A stretch of DNA of 39,201 nucleotides, taken from the NCBI GenBank assembly GCA_015232825.1, contig JADFYY010000007.1, forward strand, positions 1-39,201, given 5' to 3'. Below are positions 2,086 through 39,060 of the stretch, one piece after another. Under the pieces are notes generated by a model. It was given only the letters and a program-made list of their open reading frames with translations. It did no database searches and was not told where the DNA came from. The translations under genes were made by a program, and so were the position numbers. This DNA comes from Magnetococcales bacterium. GTDB lineage: Bacteria; Pseudomonadota; Magnetococcia; Magnetococcales; Magnetaquicoccaceae. Numbering within the stretch: position 1 is the first letter of the stretch; each line of letters opens with the position of its first letter.

Positions 2086-2607
2086 ATGGAAGGTGTTACC
2101 AAAAAAATGCACGAGAAGGATGTTTTTGAAAATACCTTGACGATTATCAAGGGGTTGTATGGCAAGGAGAGCTTTTGCAACCGGATCAAAGAAGGACCGA
2201 TTTATATCGATATCGAAGTGGAGCAGGGATGCACCAAGAGCATCATGCTGGAATATGGCAAGCTGGTTGTTTCCAGGGACTCCAAAGATGTGAATGGGGC
2301 TTATGTCACCCATGATATCCTGCGGGATCCGCAGTCGTTTGAGCAGTTTGTTTTTGTTGAAAAATTCTATGAGTACATGGACTGCAAGATCAATGATCTG
2401 ACAGAATATGAAATCTCGTTGCGTGAATATGAAAGTCTGTTGAAGTTCTCCCAGATCACCGCGAATTTAAACTATAAAATGTTCCCGGCTCTGATGGAGT
2501 TCTTCAAGAAAGATTGTTTGAATACGTTCAAGTCGGTTTTGAGCAAGGAGCAGACCAAGGTATTGAATATGCGACTTGGTGAGTTGTTGTTGGAATATCG
2601 TGCATAG
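2086..2607 (+). CDS. hypothetical protein, 173 residues
   Basis: The ATG at 2086 follows AAGGGG with 7 nt spacing, a strong ribosome site, so the gene looks real. The product is soluble and acidic, with mixed sheet in the first half (IYIDIEVEQG, IMLEYGKLVVSRD) and helix in the second (YEISLREYESLLKFSQ, ALMEFFKKDCLNTFKSVL). There is no signal peptide or membrane segment. I do not recognise the family. Its 3' end overlaps the start of the DUF262 gene by up to 32 bp in another frame, suggesting co-transcription and possibly a functional link to that module. An alternative is a stand-alone regulatory or chaperone-like gene. Confidence 0.7.
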   Translation: MEGVTKKMHEKDVFENTLTIIKGLYGKESFCNRIKEGPIYIDIEVEQGCTKSIMLEYGKLVVSRDSKDVNGAYVTHDILRDPQSFEQFVFVEKFYEYMDCKINDLTEYEISLREYESLLKFSQITANLNYKMFPALMEFFKKDCLNTFKSVLSKEQTKVLNMRLGELLLEYRA

Positions 2608-3637
2608 GATCTCCAACCCCTTTGACCCGTCTAGGATCAAGGTTGAGACCAAGCCGATGAGTTTGGATACCTTGATCCGCCGCATGAAAGAGGGAGAGAT
2701 TGAACTTTCTCCTGATTTTCAACGTAATGAGGTCTGGCAACCACCCGCCAAAAGCCGGTTGATTGAATCCTTGTTGATTCGTATTCCTTTGCCTGCTTTT
2801 TACATGGATGCGACGAATGAGGATCGATGGTTGGTGGTGGATGGTTTGCAGAGGCTCTCCACGTTGCGCGATTTTGTTATTCCGAAGTCTGAAGATAAAA
2901 GATTGCGTCTGGTTGGTTTGGAGTTCTTGACGGAGTTGTCGGGGAAAGGATTCGATGAGCTTCCCCGCAACTATCAACGCCGCATTGAAGAGACGCAAGT
3001 TACGGTATATCTGATCGAAGAGGGTACGCCGCCGGAAGTCAAATTTAATATCTTTAAGCGTATTAATACGGGAGGCCTTCCCCTCTCTCCTCAAGAGATT
3101 CGGCATGCGATGAATCAGGGGCCGGTTACTGGTTTTTTGAAAGAATTGGCAGAATCTCAAGAATTCCGGGATGCCACGAAAGGGGAGATTTGGGATAACC
3201 GTATGTCGGATCGGGAGTTTGTCTTACGTTTTTTTGCTTTTGTTTTGATTCCTGATAGATGTAATGAGATAGATGATGATACGTTTCTCATGGAGGCCAT
3301 GGACCGATTGAATAAAATGTCGGATCAGGAACGGCAGGTGTTGAAGCTGAGATTCTATCGTGTCCTGTTGCAAGCAGGGCATTTTTTTGTCGAGACTGGT
3401 CCTTTCTGGAAGGATATGTTTGTAGAATTGTGTGTGAGTCTAAATGAATTGACTGAAGATCAAATCAATTTTATAATAGAAAATAAAAAAGAGTTTAAAT
3501 TTTCAAACGATTCATTTTTTTTAAATGATGTATATTATGATGATTCTTTTTGTGATCCGCAGGACCGGCAGTCGCGTTTTAGTTACATAAGAAATGAGAT
3601 TCAAGATTTCTTGCAGAAAAAGGAGCATCCCTCATGA
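2576..3637 (+). CDS. DUF262 (GmrSD N-terminal / ParB-like) domain protein
   Basis: The DUF262 family includes the N-terminal half of GmrSD restriction enzymes and belongs to the ParB/Srx superfamily; many members act in phage defence with an ATPase partner. Family hallmarks seen are SPDFQR at about 45-50, SRLIESLLIRIPLPAFY at 60-76, the DGLQRL motif at 89-94 and FNIFKRINTGG further on. Length is about 353 residues and there is no fused DUF1524 HNH nuclease. The start is uncertain: TTG 2576, GTG 2579 and GTG 2600 are all in frame and none has a good ribosome site; an N-terminus near RISNPFDPSRI is normal for the family. The last codons become AT-rich. Its stop overlaps (ATGA) the start of a truncated ATPase gene, the usual companion. 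Confidence 0.85.
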   Translation: MVSCCWNIVHRISNPFDPSRIKVETKPMSLDTLIRRMKEGEIELSPDFQRNEVWQPPAKSRLIESLLIRIPLPAFYMDATNEDRWLVVDGLQRLSTLRDFVIPKSEDKRLRLVGLEFLTELSGKGFDELPRNYQRRIEETQVTVYLIEEGTPPEVKFNIFKRINTGGLPLSPQEIRHAMNQGPVTGFLKELAESQEFRDATKGEIWDNRMSDREFVLRFFAFVLIPDRCNEIDDDTFLMEAMDRLNKMSDQERQVLKLRFYRVLLQAGHFFVETGPFWKDMFVELCVSLNELTEDQINFIIENKKEFKFSNDSFFLNDVYYDDSFCDPQDRQSRFSYIRNEIQDFLQKKEHPS

Positions 3638-25031: not shown

Positions 25032-25913
25032 GTGGAGCAGATGGCACCGGATTTTCCTGAGTTGGTGGAGGGTTCGTTTGTGCCGGACGCCCTCAGCCTA
25101 TTCATCTCCGACAAGCTGTTTCGTGTGAAGATGGTCCAAGGTGCCCCAATTTTTATCCATGTATTGACCGAACACAAGAGCTACCCAGATCGCAAAGTGG
25201 GCTGGCAGATTACACGCGGCATCATGGCATGCACAGAACAATCCATCCGAGAAATGGGCAAAAACTGGGAATCGCTGCCAGCCGTGATTTCAGTGTTGAT
25301 CTACCACGGCAACTCCCCATGGAATTACCCCAATGACCTGATTTCCCTGGTTGATGCCAACAGTGCCATGCACCCATGGCTGCTGAATATTCGATACATT
25401 CTTGTGGACCTGAGTATCACGGCAGATTCACTGTTATCTCGACATGCCCGTTTGCGAGCAGGATTTTTGGCTCTGAAATACGGAACTCGCAGTCCGGAAG
25501 AGCAGATGGAAGCACTTGGACAGATTGCCGATGCACTTCGGGATGCACCAGAACTCTTAGTTCCGGTGATGATTTATCTAATGGCAACATTCACATTACT
25601 GAAAAAAGAAACCGTGCATGAGATCATCATGCAGGTCAAACCGGAGGAGGAAACGGAAATGATGTCACAATTCGCACAAGAGATTTTGAACAACGGCAAA
25701 CCAGAGTGGGCTACGATGGTGCGGCAGGAAGGATGGCAGGAAGGTCGCAAGGATGAAGCCGCTGCCATGCTGCTCAAACAGATGCGTCGCAAATTTGGCC
25801 AGACATCGGACTGGGCGACCGAGAAAGTCAGGTCGGCAAACCTGGAATTGATCGAGATATGGAGCGACAACTTCGTCTTCGCAAACTCCGTGGACGAGGT
25901 CTTTGCGCCATGA
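25032..25913 (+). CDS. Rpn-family recombination-promoting nuclease, N-terminally shortened, with DUF4351-like tail
   Basis: The core is well conserved: ELVEGSFVPDALSLFISDKLFRVK and FIHVLTEHKSYPDRK hold the catalytic Asp and the E-x-K pair of this PD-(D/E)XK family (Rpn/YhgA, PF04754 type). The C-terminus, LLKQMRRKFGQTSDWATEKV to ANSVDEVFAP, is a DUF4351-like domain related to that at 22738. The listed start is GTG 25032. Family members normally have some 20-40 more residues, and matching sequence continues upstream to an in-frame TAA at 24972. The gene is therefore either a slightly truncated survivor or a recent pseudogene. It points away from the other Rpn gene, with the IS66 debris between them. 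Confidence 0.7.
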   Translation: MEQMAPDFPELVEGSFVPDALSLFISDKLFRVKMVQGAPIFIHVLTEHKSYPDRKVGWQITRGIMACTEQSIREMGKNWESLPAVISVLIYHGNSPWNYPNDLISLVDANSAMHPWLLNIRYILVDLSITADSLLSRHARLRAGFLALKYGTRSPEEQMEALGQIADALRDAPELLVPVMIYLMATFTLLKKETVHEIIMQVKPEEETEMMSQFAQEILNNGKPEWATMVRQEGWQEGRKDEAAAMLLKQMRRKFGQTSDWATEKVRSANLELIEIWSDNFVFANSVDEVFAP

Positions 25914-25970
25914 GTAGATGGCCCGAACTGGATCGGACGTCACCTTGGCATTTCCCGGTCCTGATTCTCC

Positions 25971-26190
25971 AATTTTCTGTGGTGCCTCACAATGACCTAA
26001 TCAATCCTTAACAGGATATATTTGTAATATCATATAGTTATCAATAATGATCAGCACGGCTTGGCCCATTATTTACAGCCCGTTTAAGCGTTGTGCGCCA
26101 AGGGAGGTACGAAAAACAGACCCCTTCCGTGGATGGGCTTCTTTGTCTAGGCTACTCCCGTTAGGTCATTGTGAGGCACCACCGAAATTT
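25971..26190. mobile_element. 220-bp MITE-like element with 30-bp terminal inverted repeats
   Basis: The left end (25971-26000) and right end (26161-26190) are inverted copies with 28 of 30 matches; the inner 22 bp (25979-26000 and 26161-26182, containing GGTGCCTCACAATGACCTAA on the left) match perfectly. The 160-bp interior has no plausible gene. No target-site duplication is evident next to the ends. Size and structure fit a miniature inverted-repeat element mobilised in trans by an unidentified transposase, or the fused ends of a deleted insertion sequence. It lies just downstream of argH. Confidence 0.6.
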
Positions 26191-26237
26191 AAATGCTTCC
26201 GCCAGGACTTTCTCTGCAATTATGGAGTAGTTGCGTT

Positions 26238-27611
26238 TTATGATAGACGAGCCCGTGCGGACTCAATGGCCGTGCGTACCGTTGTAAATGCTGTACCACC
26301 GACCACCTTGCGGGCATTGACCGAAGCAGTCACGGTCAAAACGGCCATCACCTCAGAACCAATCCGTCCATCCACAGCCTGCATCTCTGCGAGAGTTAAT
26401 TGCTCTAGGGAACGACCTGTGTTCACACAAACACGTACCAAACGCCCGGAAATCTCATGGGCCTGACGAAATGGAATCCCTAAACGTACCAGATAATCGG
26501 CCAAATCCGTGGCCGTGGTGTAACCAACCTTGGCTGCAGCCAACATGACCTCAGGATATACCCGAATCTCAACTAACATCCCGGTAAATACCTTGAGACA
26601 CCCCCGTACCGTGTCCACAATGTCAAAAATGGCCTCTTTGTCCTCCTGCATGTCCCGGTTGTAGGCCAAAGGCAAACCCTTCATCAAAGTCAACAACCCC
26701 ATCAAATGACCCGTTACCCGACCACTCTTGCCACGCACCAACTCTGGAGCATCTGGATTCTTTTTTTGCGGCATGATGCTAGAGCCTGTCGCAAAGGCAT
26801 CGGATAGTTCAATAAAACCAAAATTCGGCGAAGACCAAAGAATCAACTCCTCGGAAAAACGCGACAAATGGGTCATGACCAACGCCGCCGCCGCCGCCGT
26901 CTCAATGACAAAATCCCGATCCGAAACCGCATCCAGAGAGTTGCGACATACCCCTTCAAAACCCAATTCCTTAGCAACCCACTCCCGATCAATGGGATAG
27001 GGCGTCCCGGCCAATGCGGCTGACCCCAAAGGGAGTTGATTGATCCGCTTACGCAACTCACTAAACCGCTGCCTATCCCGATCCAACATCTCAAAATAAG
27101 CCATGAGATGATGACCCAACGTCACAGGCTGGGCATTTTGCAAATGGGTGAAACCGGGCATGATGGTCTCAACATGAACTTCAGCCAAATCCACCAAAAC
27201 ACTCTGTAAAGTACGAACAGCATCCCGAATGGCATCACACTCCTCTCGCAACCACAACCGCAAATCCGTGGCTACCTGATCATTGCGAGAACGGGCCGTG
27301 TGCAACTTGCCTGCCACAGGACCAATTAACTCAGCCAGACGACTCTCCACATGCATGTGAATGTCTTCCAGATCATCGCGAAAGGGCAACTCCCCCTGTT
27401 CAATCTCCGCACGCACCCGCACCAGACCATCCAGAATCAAATCGGCCTCATCCCCGGCAATGATCCCCTGACGCGCCAACATGCGACAGTGAACCATGGA
27501 ACCCTGAATATCCTGACGAAACAACCGCGCATCATAGTGAATGGAGGCGGAAAACGACTCCATGAAGGCATCGGTAGCCTGGGTGAAACGCCCCCCCCAC
27601 AGCTTTGTCAT
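26238..27611 (-). CDS. argH: argininosuccinate lyase
   Basis: Last enzyme of arginine synthesis: cleaves argininosuccinate to arginine and fumarate. The 457-residue protein shows [12 protein letters not shown] at the N-terminus, [17 protein letters not shown] at 104-120, [10 protein letters not shown] at 153-162 and the superfamily signature [12 protein letters not shown] at 276-287 with the catalytic serine loop. Length equals the E. coli enzyme (457). The start overlaps the argG stop by 4 bp (ATGA). It is the last gene of the argD-argF-argG-argH unit; no terminator hairpin is visible before the MITE-like element 48 bp further on. Confidence 0.97.
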
Positions 27612-36087: not shown

Positions 36088-39060
36088 ATGGCGACATCAG
36101 AACACCAAATCGAGCAAGACCTCATCGGCAAGCTGGGTGAGCTTAAATACACCGTTCGCCCCGACATCCGCGACCGCGCCGCGCTGGAGGCCAACTTCCG
36201 CGTCAAGTTCGAGGCCCTCAACCGGGTCAAGCTCACCGAAGGCGAATTCACGCGCCTCTTGGATAGCGTCACCACGACCGATGTTTTCAATGCCGCTCTG
36301 ATGCTGCGCAGCATTAACGCCTTTGAACGGGATGATGGCACCCCGCTCAATTATACGCTCGTCAACATCAAGGATTGGTGCAAGAACGACTTCGAGGTGG
36401 TCAACCAGCTTCGCATCAACAACCACAGCAGCCATCACCGCTACGACATGATGCTGCTCATCAATGGTGTGCCAGTGGTGCAGATCGAGATGAAAACTCT
36501 CTCTGTCAGCCCACGCCGCGCCATGCAGCAGATCGTCGATTACAAGAACGATCCAGGCAACGGTTATGGCAACACGCTGCTGTGCTTCATCCAGATCTTC
36601 ATCGTCAGCAACCGCACCGATACTTGGTACTTCGCCAACAACAACACACGACACTTCAACTTCAACGCCGACGAGCGTTTTTTGCCCGTTTACCAGTTCG
36701 CGGACCCAGACAACAAGAAGATCATCCATCTCGATGCCTTTGCCGAGAAGTTCCTTACCAAATGCACCCTGGGCGAGATGGTCAGCCGCTATATGGTGCT
36801 GGTGGCCAGCGAGCAAAAGCTGGTGATGATGCGGCCCTATCAGATCTATGCCGTGCGCGCCATCGTAGACTGCATCCATCAACGCTGCGGCAACGGTTAT
36901 ATCTGGCACACCACCGGCAGCGGCAAGACGCTCACCTCGTTCAAGGCCTCCACGCTGCTCAAGGACAACCCGGACATCGACAAATGCCTGTTCGTGGTGG
37001 ACCGTAAAGATCTCGACCGCCAGACCCGTGAGGAGTTCAATCGCTTCCAGGAAGGCTGCGTCGAAGAGAATACCAATACCGAGGCCCTGGTGCGTCGGTT
37101 GCTCTCGGACGGCTATGCCGACAAGGTCATTGTCACCACCATCCAGAAGCTAGGTCTGGCACTCGATGGCACGAACAGGCGCAACTATGTGGAGCGTCTG
37201 AAGCCGCTGCGCGACCAGCGTATGGTCTTCATTTTCGATGAATGCCACCGCTCCCAGTTTGGTGAGAACCACAAGGCCATCAAGGAGTTCTTTCCCAACG
37301 CCCAGTTGTTCGGCTTTACCGGCACGCCCATTTTTGAGAAAAACGCTTCCTATAAGCAATTCCAGGACCAGCAGGGATCGTTCAGGACTACGGAAGAGAT
37401 CTTCCAGAAACAACTGCATGCCTACACCATCACCCATGCTATCGAAGACCGCAACGTCCTGCGCTTTCATATCGATTACTACAAGCCAGAGGGCAACAAC
37501 CCGCCCAAACCCAGTGAAGCCCTGGCCAAGGAAAAGGTGATTGAAACCATCTTCGCCAAGCATGACGCCGCCACCAGTGGCCGCAAATTCAACGCCGTAC
37601 TGGCCACCGCCAGCATCAACGACGCCATCGCCTATTTTGATGCGTTCCAACGGATGCAGGCCGACAGGCGGACCGAAGACCCGGAATTCAAACCGTTGCA
37701 CATCGCCTGCGTCTTTTCACCGCCCGCCGAAGGCAACAAGGACGTGGCGCAGATTCAAGAAGACCTGCCGCAGGAAAAAAGCGATAACGAACAAGATCCA
37801 GAGGGCAAAAAGGCCGCACTCATCCGCATCATCGCTGATTACAACACCCGCTACGGCACCAACCACCGCATGGCCGATTTCGACCTCTACTACCAGGATG
37901 TGCAAAAGCGCATCAAAGACCAGCAATACCCCAATGCCGACCTGCCTCACGCGCAGAAGATCGATCTGACCCTAGTCGTGGACATGCTGCTCACCGGCTT
38001 TGACTCCAAATACCTCAACACCTTGTATGTTGATAAGAACCTCAAGCACCATGGACTCATTCAAGCGTTTTCGCGCACCAACCGCGTACTCAACGACAGC
38101 AAGCCCTATGGCAACATCCTCGATTTTCGCCAGCAGCAAGTGCCGGTGGAAGAGGCCATTACCCTGTTCTCCGGCGAGAAGATCGACAACCCGCGCGAAA
38201 TCTGGCTGGTGGACGCCGCCCCCAAGGTCATCGACAAGCTTGGGGCCGCCACGCAGCAACTGGAAGATTTCCTGCGCTCGCAGGGCCTGGAGGCCAAGCC
38301 TGAAGAAGTGGCCAACCTCAAGGGCGATGCGGCGCGCAGCCAGTTTGTCAACCTGTTCAAAGAGGTGCAGCGTCTGGCCACCCAGCTCGACCAGTACACA
38401 GATCTTTCTGCGGAACAGAAAAAACAGATTGACACCATTGTCCCGCCCGATACCCTGCAAGGCTTCCGTGCCCAGTACCTGGAAACCGCCCGTCAACTTA
38501 AGAAAAAGCAGGACAAGAGCAACACCGCCCCCGAAGTGCAGCAGCTTGATTTCGAGTTCGTCCTTTTTGCCAGTGCCGTCATCGATTATGATTATATCAT
38601 GGGTCTCATCGCCCGGATGACTCAGCCTGGCAGACGCACCATGAGCCGTGATCAGTTGATCGGCCTCATCCAGTCGGATGCCAAATTTCTGGACGAACGC
38701 GACGACATCGCCGACTACATCCGTAGCCTGCCAGTAGGACAGGCACTGGACGAAAAAGCCATTCGCGAAGGTTTTGATCGTTTCAAGGCAGAGAAAAAAA
38801 CGCAGGCCATCATCGATCTGGCCGCCCGCCACGGGCTGGAGGCGCAAGCCCTGCAAGGCTTTGTCGATACGGTGCTGCGCCGCCACATCTTCGACGGCGA
38901 ACGCCTCTCCGAGATCTTTGCTCCTCTGGAGTTGGGCTGGAAAGTGCGCACCAAAGCCGAACTGAAACTCATGGACGAACTCGCGCCCTTGCTGCACAAG
39001 CTGGCCCAGGGGCGGGAGATTGCGGGGCTGGCTGCGTATGAAGAGGAGCGCACGGCATGA
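36088..39060 (+). CDS. hsdR: type I restriction endonuclease, R (translocase/nuclease) subunit
   Basis: The 990-residue HsdR motor translocates DNA and cuts it. The N-terminal nuclease has Asp120 (HHRYDMMLLING), Glu134 and Lys136 (VVQIEMK), followed by the QxxxY-type element QQIVDYK. The helicase core has Walker A HTTGSGKT at 274-281, FVVDRKDLD, the DECH box at 384-387 (FIFDECHRSQFG), GFTGTPIF and a late motif FSRTNRV. It resembles the EcoR124/EcoprrI group. The stop overlaps the hsdS start by 4 bp. The sequence is clearly more GC-rich with long C-ending codon runs than the priA-lipoprotein side, consistent with horizontal gain. No frameshift is seen, so it appears intact. Confidence 0.95.
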   Translation: MATSEHQIEQDLIGKLGELKYTVRPDIRDRAALEANFRVKFEALNRVKLTEGEFTRLLDSVTTTDVFNAALMLRSINAFERDDGTPLNYTLVNIKDWCKNDFEVVNQLRINNHSSHHRYDMMLLINGVPVVQIEMKTLSVSPRRAMQQIVDYKNDPGNGYGNTLLCFIQIFIVSNRTDTWYFANNNTRHFNFNADERFLPVYQFADPDNKKIIHLDAFAEKFLTKCTLGEMVSRYMVLVASEQKLVMMRPYQIYAVRAIVDCIHQRCGNGYIWHTTGSGKTLTSFKASTLLKDNPDIDKCLFVVDRKDLDRQTREEFNRFQEGCVEENTNTEALVRRLLSDGYADKVIVTTIQKLGLALDGTNRRNYVERLKPLRDQRMVFIFDECHRSQFGENHKAIKEFFPNAQLFGFTGTPIFEKNASYKQFQDQQGSFRTTEEIFQKQLHAYTITHAIEDRNVLRFHIDYYKPEGNNPPKPSEALAKEKVIETIFAKHDAATSGRKFNAVLATASINDAIAYFDAFQRMQADRRTEDPEFKPLHIACVFSPPAEGNKDVAQIQEDLPQEKSDNEQDPEGKKAALIRIIADYNTRYGTNHRMADFDLYYQDVQKRIKDQQYPNADLPHAQKIDLTLVVDMLLTGFDSKYLNTLYVDKNLKHHGLIQAFSRTNRVLNDSKPYGNILDFRQQQVPVEEAITLFSGEKIDNPREIWLVDAAPKVIDKLGAATQQLEDFLRSQGLEAKPEEVANLKGDAARSQFVNLFKEVQRLATQLDQYTDLSAEQKKQIDTIVPPDTLQGFRAQYLETARQLKKKQDKSNTAPEVQQLDFEFVLFASAVIDYDYIMGLIARMTQPGRRTMSRDQLIGLIQSDAKFLDERDDIADYIRSLPVGQALDEKAIREGFDRFKAEKKTQAIIDLAARHGLEAQALQGFVDTVLRRHIFDGERLSEIFAPLELGWKVRTKAELKLMDELAPLLHKLAQGREIAGLAAYEEERTA

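Follow-up and report, generated by a model that had tools for sequence, protein, structure and literature searches.

The window, i.e., the whole 39,201-nucleotide stretch of a Magnetococcales contig analyzed here, carries a short inverted-repeat element between two convergent genes. The features of the locus, with the basis for each call, are:

25032-25913, + strand: gene for an Rpn/YhgA-like PD-(D/E)XK-type protein, convergent with argH (Pfam Transposase_31, DUF4351)
25970-25977, + strand: octamer CAATTTTC on the left flank, resembling a target (its score is reached by 0.03% of window octamers)
25978-26183, no strand assigned: miniature element, 206 bp, 46% G+C (departure point of the copy on contig C261; homologous IS ends)
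25978-26000, + strand: left terminal inverted repeat, 23 bp, of which 22 bp are perfect and the first base is T, not G (inverted-repeat search and IS end comparison)
26068-26154, + strand: probable 3'-terminal remnant of a transposase gene of the IS1-like kind (around WPVRTLR..K), with stops and indels (alignments and shuffles)
26161-26183, - strand: right terminal inverted repeat, 23 bp (inverted-repeat search and IS end comparison)
26184-26191, + strand: octamer GAAATTTA on the right flank, resembling a target (its score is reached by 0.6% of window octamers)
26238-27611, - strand: argH (argininosuccinate lyase), 3' end toward the element (Pfam Lyase_1 and ASL_C2)

Two defence genes, for a protein with a GmrSD N-terminal domain (2576-3637) and for a Type I restriction R subunit (36088-39060), surround a housekeeping block in the same window.

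A preliminary description of this DNA proposed a MITE-like element with 30-bp terminal inverted repeats and a non-coding interior. An inverted-repeat search of the window returns arms at 25971-26000 and 26161-26190, each of 30 nt, 93% complementary and separated by 160 nt, which match in 28 of 30 positions and include a perfect core of 22 bp (25979-26000 and 26161-26182). By our own arithmetic, the number of perfect inverted pairs of 22 bp, no more than 500 bp apart, that chance would produce in DNA of this size is about 1e-6. The repeat is thus real, but the true ends are only 22-23 bp long. A second copy in the same genome departs right after 26183 and related insertion sequences (IS) begin with GGTGGTGCC, which places the boundaries at 25978-26183; the terminal sequence of the element is GGTGGTGCCTCACATTGACCTAA, and its first base is T where the relatives have G. 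What lies outside these boundaries in the 30-bp arms is target-like flank, and its palindromic nature accounts for the longer arms described before.

Stops interrupt each of the six frames of the 206-bp element, and an ATG-initiated ORF that crosses part of the element (26047-26466) has no Pfam match, in agreement with the non-coding interior first noted. The element is hence what a MITE is expected to be in structure: short, non-coding and bounded by terminal inverted repeats. It also folds strongly (−82.8 kcal/mol, z −5.6), as the long stem formed by the two ends would itself suggest. That fold, together with the location between two convergent genes, could also be read as a regulatory or terminator hairpin of argH and the Rpn-like gene that merely looks like a transposon. 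We consider this highly improbable: no terminator-like site is found in 25800-26400, there is no Rfam match at gathering thresholds, the second copy has a different neighbour, and a DNA search at E 0.001 returns no copy in 60 other genomes. Specifically, all 11 genomes of the genus have argH, and in the 163 to 1494 bases that follow its stop codon in the 10 congeners (two of these flanks are short, 279 and 163 bases) the best match to the end has at least 8 mismatches in 22 positions. These flanks are not alignable by eye to that of the window, and none of the 10 congeners has the element anywhere by DNA search. Because the element is missing after argH in the congeners, a conserved regulatory role is disfavoured. 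A single copy conserved downstream of argH, which the preliminary description named as the observation that would speak for a regulatory structure, was looked for and not found.

Further copies are few. The assembly to which the window belongs (3.03 Mb in 270 contigs, 77% complete) contains one additional, partial copy (search match C261:1-81). Contig C261 starts inside the element, and only the right 77 bp are assembled: these match the window without a difference from 26107 on, and after 26183 the contig continues into other surroundings. The assembly being a metagenome bin, C261 could derive from another strain. With a trimmed query no copy is found at E 0.001 in 47 other genomes of the order, but two decayed relatives exist in a genome of the same family and another genus (G013), one on contig C143, located via its end (L015), and one on C434, located via the first. 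The core of the window element aligns to that of the C143 copy with a score of 165, compared with a mean of 52 and a maximum of 119 for shuffles. The C143 copy has no right end, since another, widespread repeat begins there, and the C434 copy has degenerate versions of both ends in the same order as in the window: left end, core, right end. Both are thus homologous to the window element in core and ends, but cut (C143) or decayed. Occurrence at multiple unrelated places, a second feature of MITEs, is accordingly represented by the window copy and the right 77 bp on C261, plus the two decayed G013 relatives.

Several other matches are not counted as copies. An end-like site on C226 with 3 mismatches lies inside a 447-aa ORF without a partner end and is taken as chance. 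Matches to the C143 query in G030, G012, G007 and G008 were dropped because the rest of the element is unaligned, and most matches to that query, in at least 28 of 48 genomes of the order, belong to the widespread repeat. This repeat, with a core around GTCAGGTCGGCCTTGATCAT, cuts the G013 copy at about 1340-1375 of L015, and it looks like another mobile repeat family. The exact 20-base end has 0 matches in GTDB genome contigs and 0 in viral contigs, collections from which the own and near genomes are perhaps absent, and the element has no match among plasmids and phages in distant mode at E up to 1.

The ends themselves are shared more widely than the element. With at most 3 mismatches allowed, the 22-bp end occurs in 8 genomes, the own among them, out of 61, and a backwards-pattern control gives 0 in all 61. 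A wider 23-base pattern gives 9, 29, 16 and 12 sites in G000, G021, G047 and G036, for 0, 1, 3 and 1 with the control. In relatives, paired ends enclose an IS1-like transposase gene in elements of 1240 bp (G015), 1197 bp (G036), 1186 bp (G021:C17) and 1185 bp (G040:C314). The genes are mostly in two frames, zinc ribbon/HTH and DDE; four distinct Magnetococcales elements have these as two overlapping frames in that order, and the D, D and E columns are present in the alignment of the partner transposases. In the own genome, C194, C16 and C133 carry IS fragments that end in this way; by our own count these ends differ from those of the element at 4, 4 and 6 of 23 positions. An intact IS bounded by the ends of the element is absent from the assembly, which is 77% complete. 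A transposase gene with the same kind of ends, the search for which had been proposed earlier, is thus found as IS1-like elements in relatives and as fragments in the own genome, and it is in this form that the element shares its ends with an autonomous one. The Rpn/YhgA-like gene next to the element is not supported as its transposase by any evidence obtained here. The tail of a similar Rpn/YhgA-like protein lies near an IS1-like end in G002 (L016).

NCBIfam IS1 is the best or near-best family for the partner transposases. The longest single frame matches NF033558 at 1.6e-12 and 47.8 bits, with a curated cut-off of 100; the other transposases are weaker, all below that cut-off, and one ORF A is slightly nearer to ISL3 (4.2e-5, vs. 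5.2e-5 for IS1). Pfam IS1 models reach only E 0.01-0.04. Plasmid relatives have 23-43% identity, and 5 are annotated as IS1 among the 15 matches listed of 19 records. The ends were initially ascribed to a possibly undescribed family; this does not hold, because they belong to IS1-like elements, if to a divergent branch under the NCBI curated cut-off for IS1. This assignment also agrees with the earlier remark that the sequence does not resemble the ends of IS66. The transposase is found at 1e-10 in 14 of 48 genomes of the order, and a scan of named genomes gives 11 loci, 5 of them in four Magnetococcales genomes and the other 6 in four Planctomycetota-type MAGs (Planctomycetota, Gemmataceae, Phycisphaerae).

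IS1-family elements make 8-9-bp duplications in A+T-rich targets, and both traits are seen for the partner IS, the former in flank pairs of G047 and the latter in the A+T profile. In 35 IS flanks (20 from G021 and 15 from G047), A and T make up 0.63-0.91 of the bases at positions −2 to −7, compared with 0.34 at −1 and 0.26 at −8. The target is a roughly palindromic, A+T-rich 8-bp site, about S-AA-WW-TT-S. A symmetrised matrix from these flanks ranks the left and right octamers of the window element at 1.0% and 1.9% among the few local intergenic octamers; the octamer one base inward of the right flank scores slightly higher (6.0 vs. 5.1). The flanks in the rest of the own genome rank at 0.1% (C194), 0.2% (C16), 1.7% (C261) and 6.0% (C133), and those in relatives at 0.6% (G015 left and G036 left), 0.9% (G004), 2.9% (G036 right), 5.4% (G013:C143) and 54% (G015 right). 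The fit of both window flanks supports insertion at both ends by an IS1-like transposase. More generally, a palindromic target preference can lengthen apparent terminal inverted repeats and blur target duplications.

That no target duplication is visible had been noted before and stands: there is no exact 8- or 9-bp duplication at the window element, the two flanking octamers being equal at only 5 of 8 positions. An exact duplication is likewise absent in all 9 two-ended elements examined, and among the 9 left and 11 right ends of G021, where the only matches are two of 7 bp with offsets. The 35 fetched flanks include two exact 8-bp left-right duplications, both in G047; the location of one of them within a repeated, hairpin-like sequence makes it less certain, since its two sides could belong to different insertions. 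The absence at the window element may reflect decay, recombination between copies that left the flanks of two insertions, or a chimeric contig. Plain decay is unattractive because the ends are perfect.

Flanks that are both target-like with no duplication between them, together with perfect ends that make decay unattractive, would also suit an origin in which recombination, deletion or misassembly joined two ends of separate former IS1-like or MITE copies; the present pair would then never have transposed together in this form. We give this a small probability. The C261 copy repeats the right 77 bp, and in G013:C434 left end, core and right end follow one another as in the window, if in degenerate form. 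The octamers at the window left and C261 right ends agree at only 4 of 8 positions, which leaves an exchange with the C261 copy unsupported.

To locate a source for the interior, alignments to IS1-like genes were scored against shuffles. When scores are summed over the last 190 nt of seven such genes, 15 of 300 shuffles are as good as the window element, and 0 of 300 are as good as either of the G013 copies. For the remaining 5' gene parts the corresponding counts are 145 for the window and 35 and 5 for the G013 copies. All three copies align to the transposase 3' ends in one register, and their orientation is the one that the right end predicts. Note that for the window interior the similarity to any single IS is weak, with 16, 89, 169 and 499 of 1000 shuffles as good. 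A first test with loose gap costs gave 6 (C194), 25 (G015), 69 (G036), 81 (G003), 137 (C16) and 155 (C133) of 300; a comparison of G013 with G015 scored the reverse strand above the forward; and nhmmer found no match for the window copy, and among the real cores only that of G013:C143 (E 0.96), beside one shuffle. The left ~70 bp of the element are without a detectable source.

This last point, the weak similarity of the window copy and a core common to two genera suggest an alternative, in which the MITE family is old and its interior is not derived from an IS by deletion; IS1-like transposases would still mobilise it, and the similarity to the 3' end would be due to chance or convergence. 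We regard it as the more serious of the alternatives, though still unlikely, given the shared register and orientation of the three copies. Internal deletions of IS do occur in the order, because G021:C11 (L112, 214 bp) and G021:C82 (L113, 571 bp) carry IS pieces between IS1-like ends. They have other interiors than the window element and represent separate deletions. Together with L110 (G036:C116) and L111 (G036:C6) they form a set of miniature or internally deleted elements of 165-571 bp with IS1-like ends, of which L111 seems to contain an extra internal end.

On the alignments, the window element is likely, if not proved, to be a deletion derivative of an IS1-like IS. With considerable confidence we interpret it as a non-autonomous IS1-type MITE that most likely arose by such a deletion and would be moved in trans. 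An internal deletion would have spared the left end together with some 3'-terminal sequence of the transposase gene, leaving two transposase-binding ends and no gene. The DDE transposase of IS1-like elements (zinc ribbon, HTH and catalytic part) would then mobilise the miniature by recognising its ~23-bp ends and joining them to A+T-rich, roughly palindromic 8-bp sites. The initial MITE-like assignment is well supported by the partial second copy, by the transposase-bearing elements with like ends and by the target preference at both flanks. An orphan hairpin can in this way be assigned to a named transposon family, most likely as a commonplace miniature that rides along with a divergent branch of it, and IS1-like elements in Magnetococcales would appear to leave miniature derivatives.

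As far as the excerpted descriptions go, MITEAba12, SMN1 and SM3A of Sulfolobus and the 187-nt MITE of Microcystis tied to ISL3 are likewise short and non-coding, with inverted ends common to a resident or related IS; the window element differs from them in its IS1-like partner, its few copies and its lack of a target duplication. Searches of an open-access subset of the literature listed neither an IS1-linked MITE nor any MITE from Magnetococcales. The parent IS resembles IS1 in end length and in two overlapping frames, zinc ribbon/HTH first and DDE second, but it is ~1.2 kb long compared with 768 bp (both points on IS1 from the portion of PMC12428005 used here), its proteins fall under the curated cut-off, and its ORF B is offset by +1 instead of −1; the miniature differs further in having no gene.

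The +1 frame overlap of the parent IS may matter more than the miniature element. Five elements share a TTTCCCCC tract, with the first frame ending 9-10 codons after it: those of G004 (L148), G015 (L014), G021:C17 (L146), G040 (L147/L187) and L190 (Gemmataceae). In all five the first frame is open for 120 to 257 codons upstream. The catalytic frame is in +1 relative to it and stays open for 249 to 309 codons in the Magnetococcales elements, but for only 28 in L190. The candidate recoding site is TTTCCCCCTC. The same portion of PMC12428005 states that IS1 itself shifts −1. A −1 frameshift at A6C was not found in the partner IS, which have the +1 overlap at the T/C tract instead.

The conservation of this tract in diverged elements suggests that +1 recoding, by frameshift or slippage, is possible, and the overlap may be a trait of an IS1 subgroup. 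In the part of a 2016 review cited here (PMC5009743), +1 transcriptional slippage is known, but +1 ribosomal frameshifting had yet to be identified in any IS, so that recoding at the translational level would give a first case relative to that text. We tentatively, and with clear reservations, place the MITE as one of several miniatures on a divergent IS1 branch found in Magnetococcales and Planctomycetota, which would use palindromic 8-bp sites and make its transposase by +1 recoding at TTTCCCCC. L189, also from Gemmataceae, is not among the +1-overlap elements: either the open stretch of its first frame upstream does not exceed 60 codons, or the motif was missed. Variants with CCCC also occur: that of G036 reads through in one frame, and that on C16 of the own genome is a fragment.
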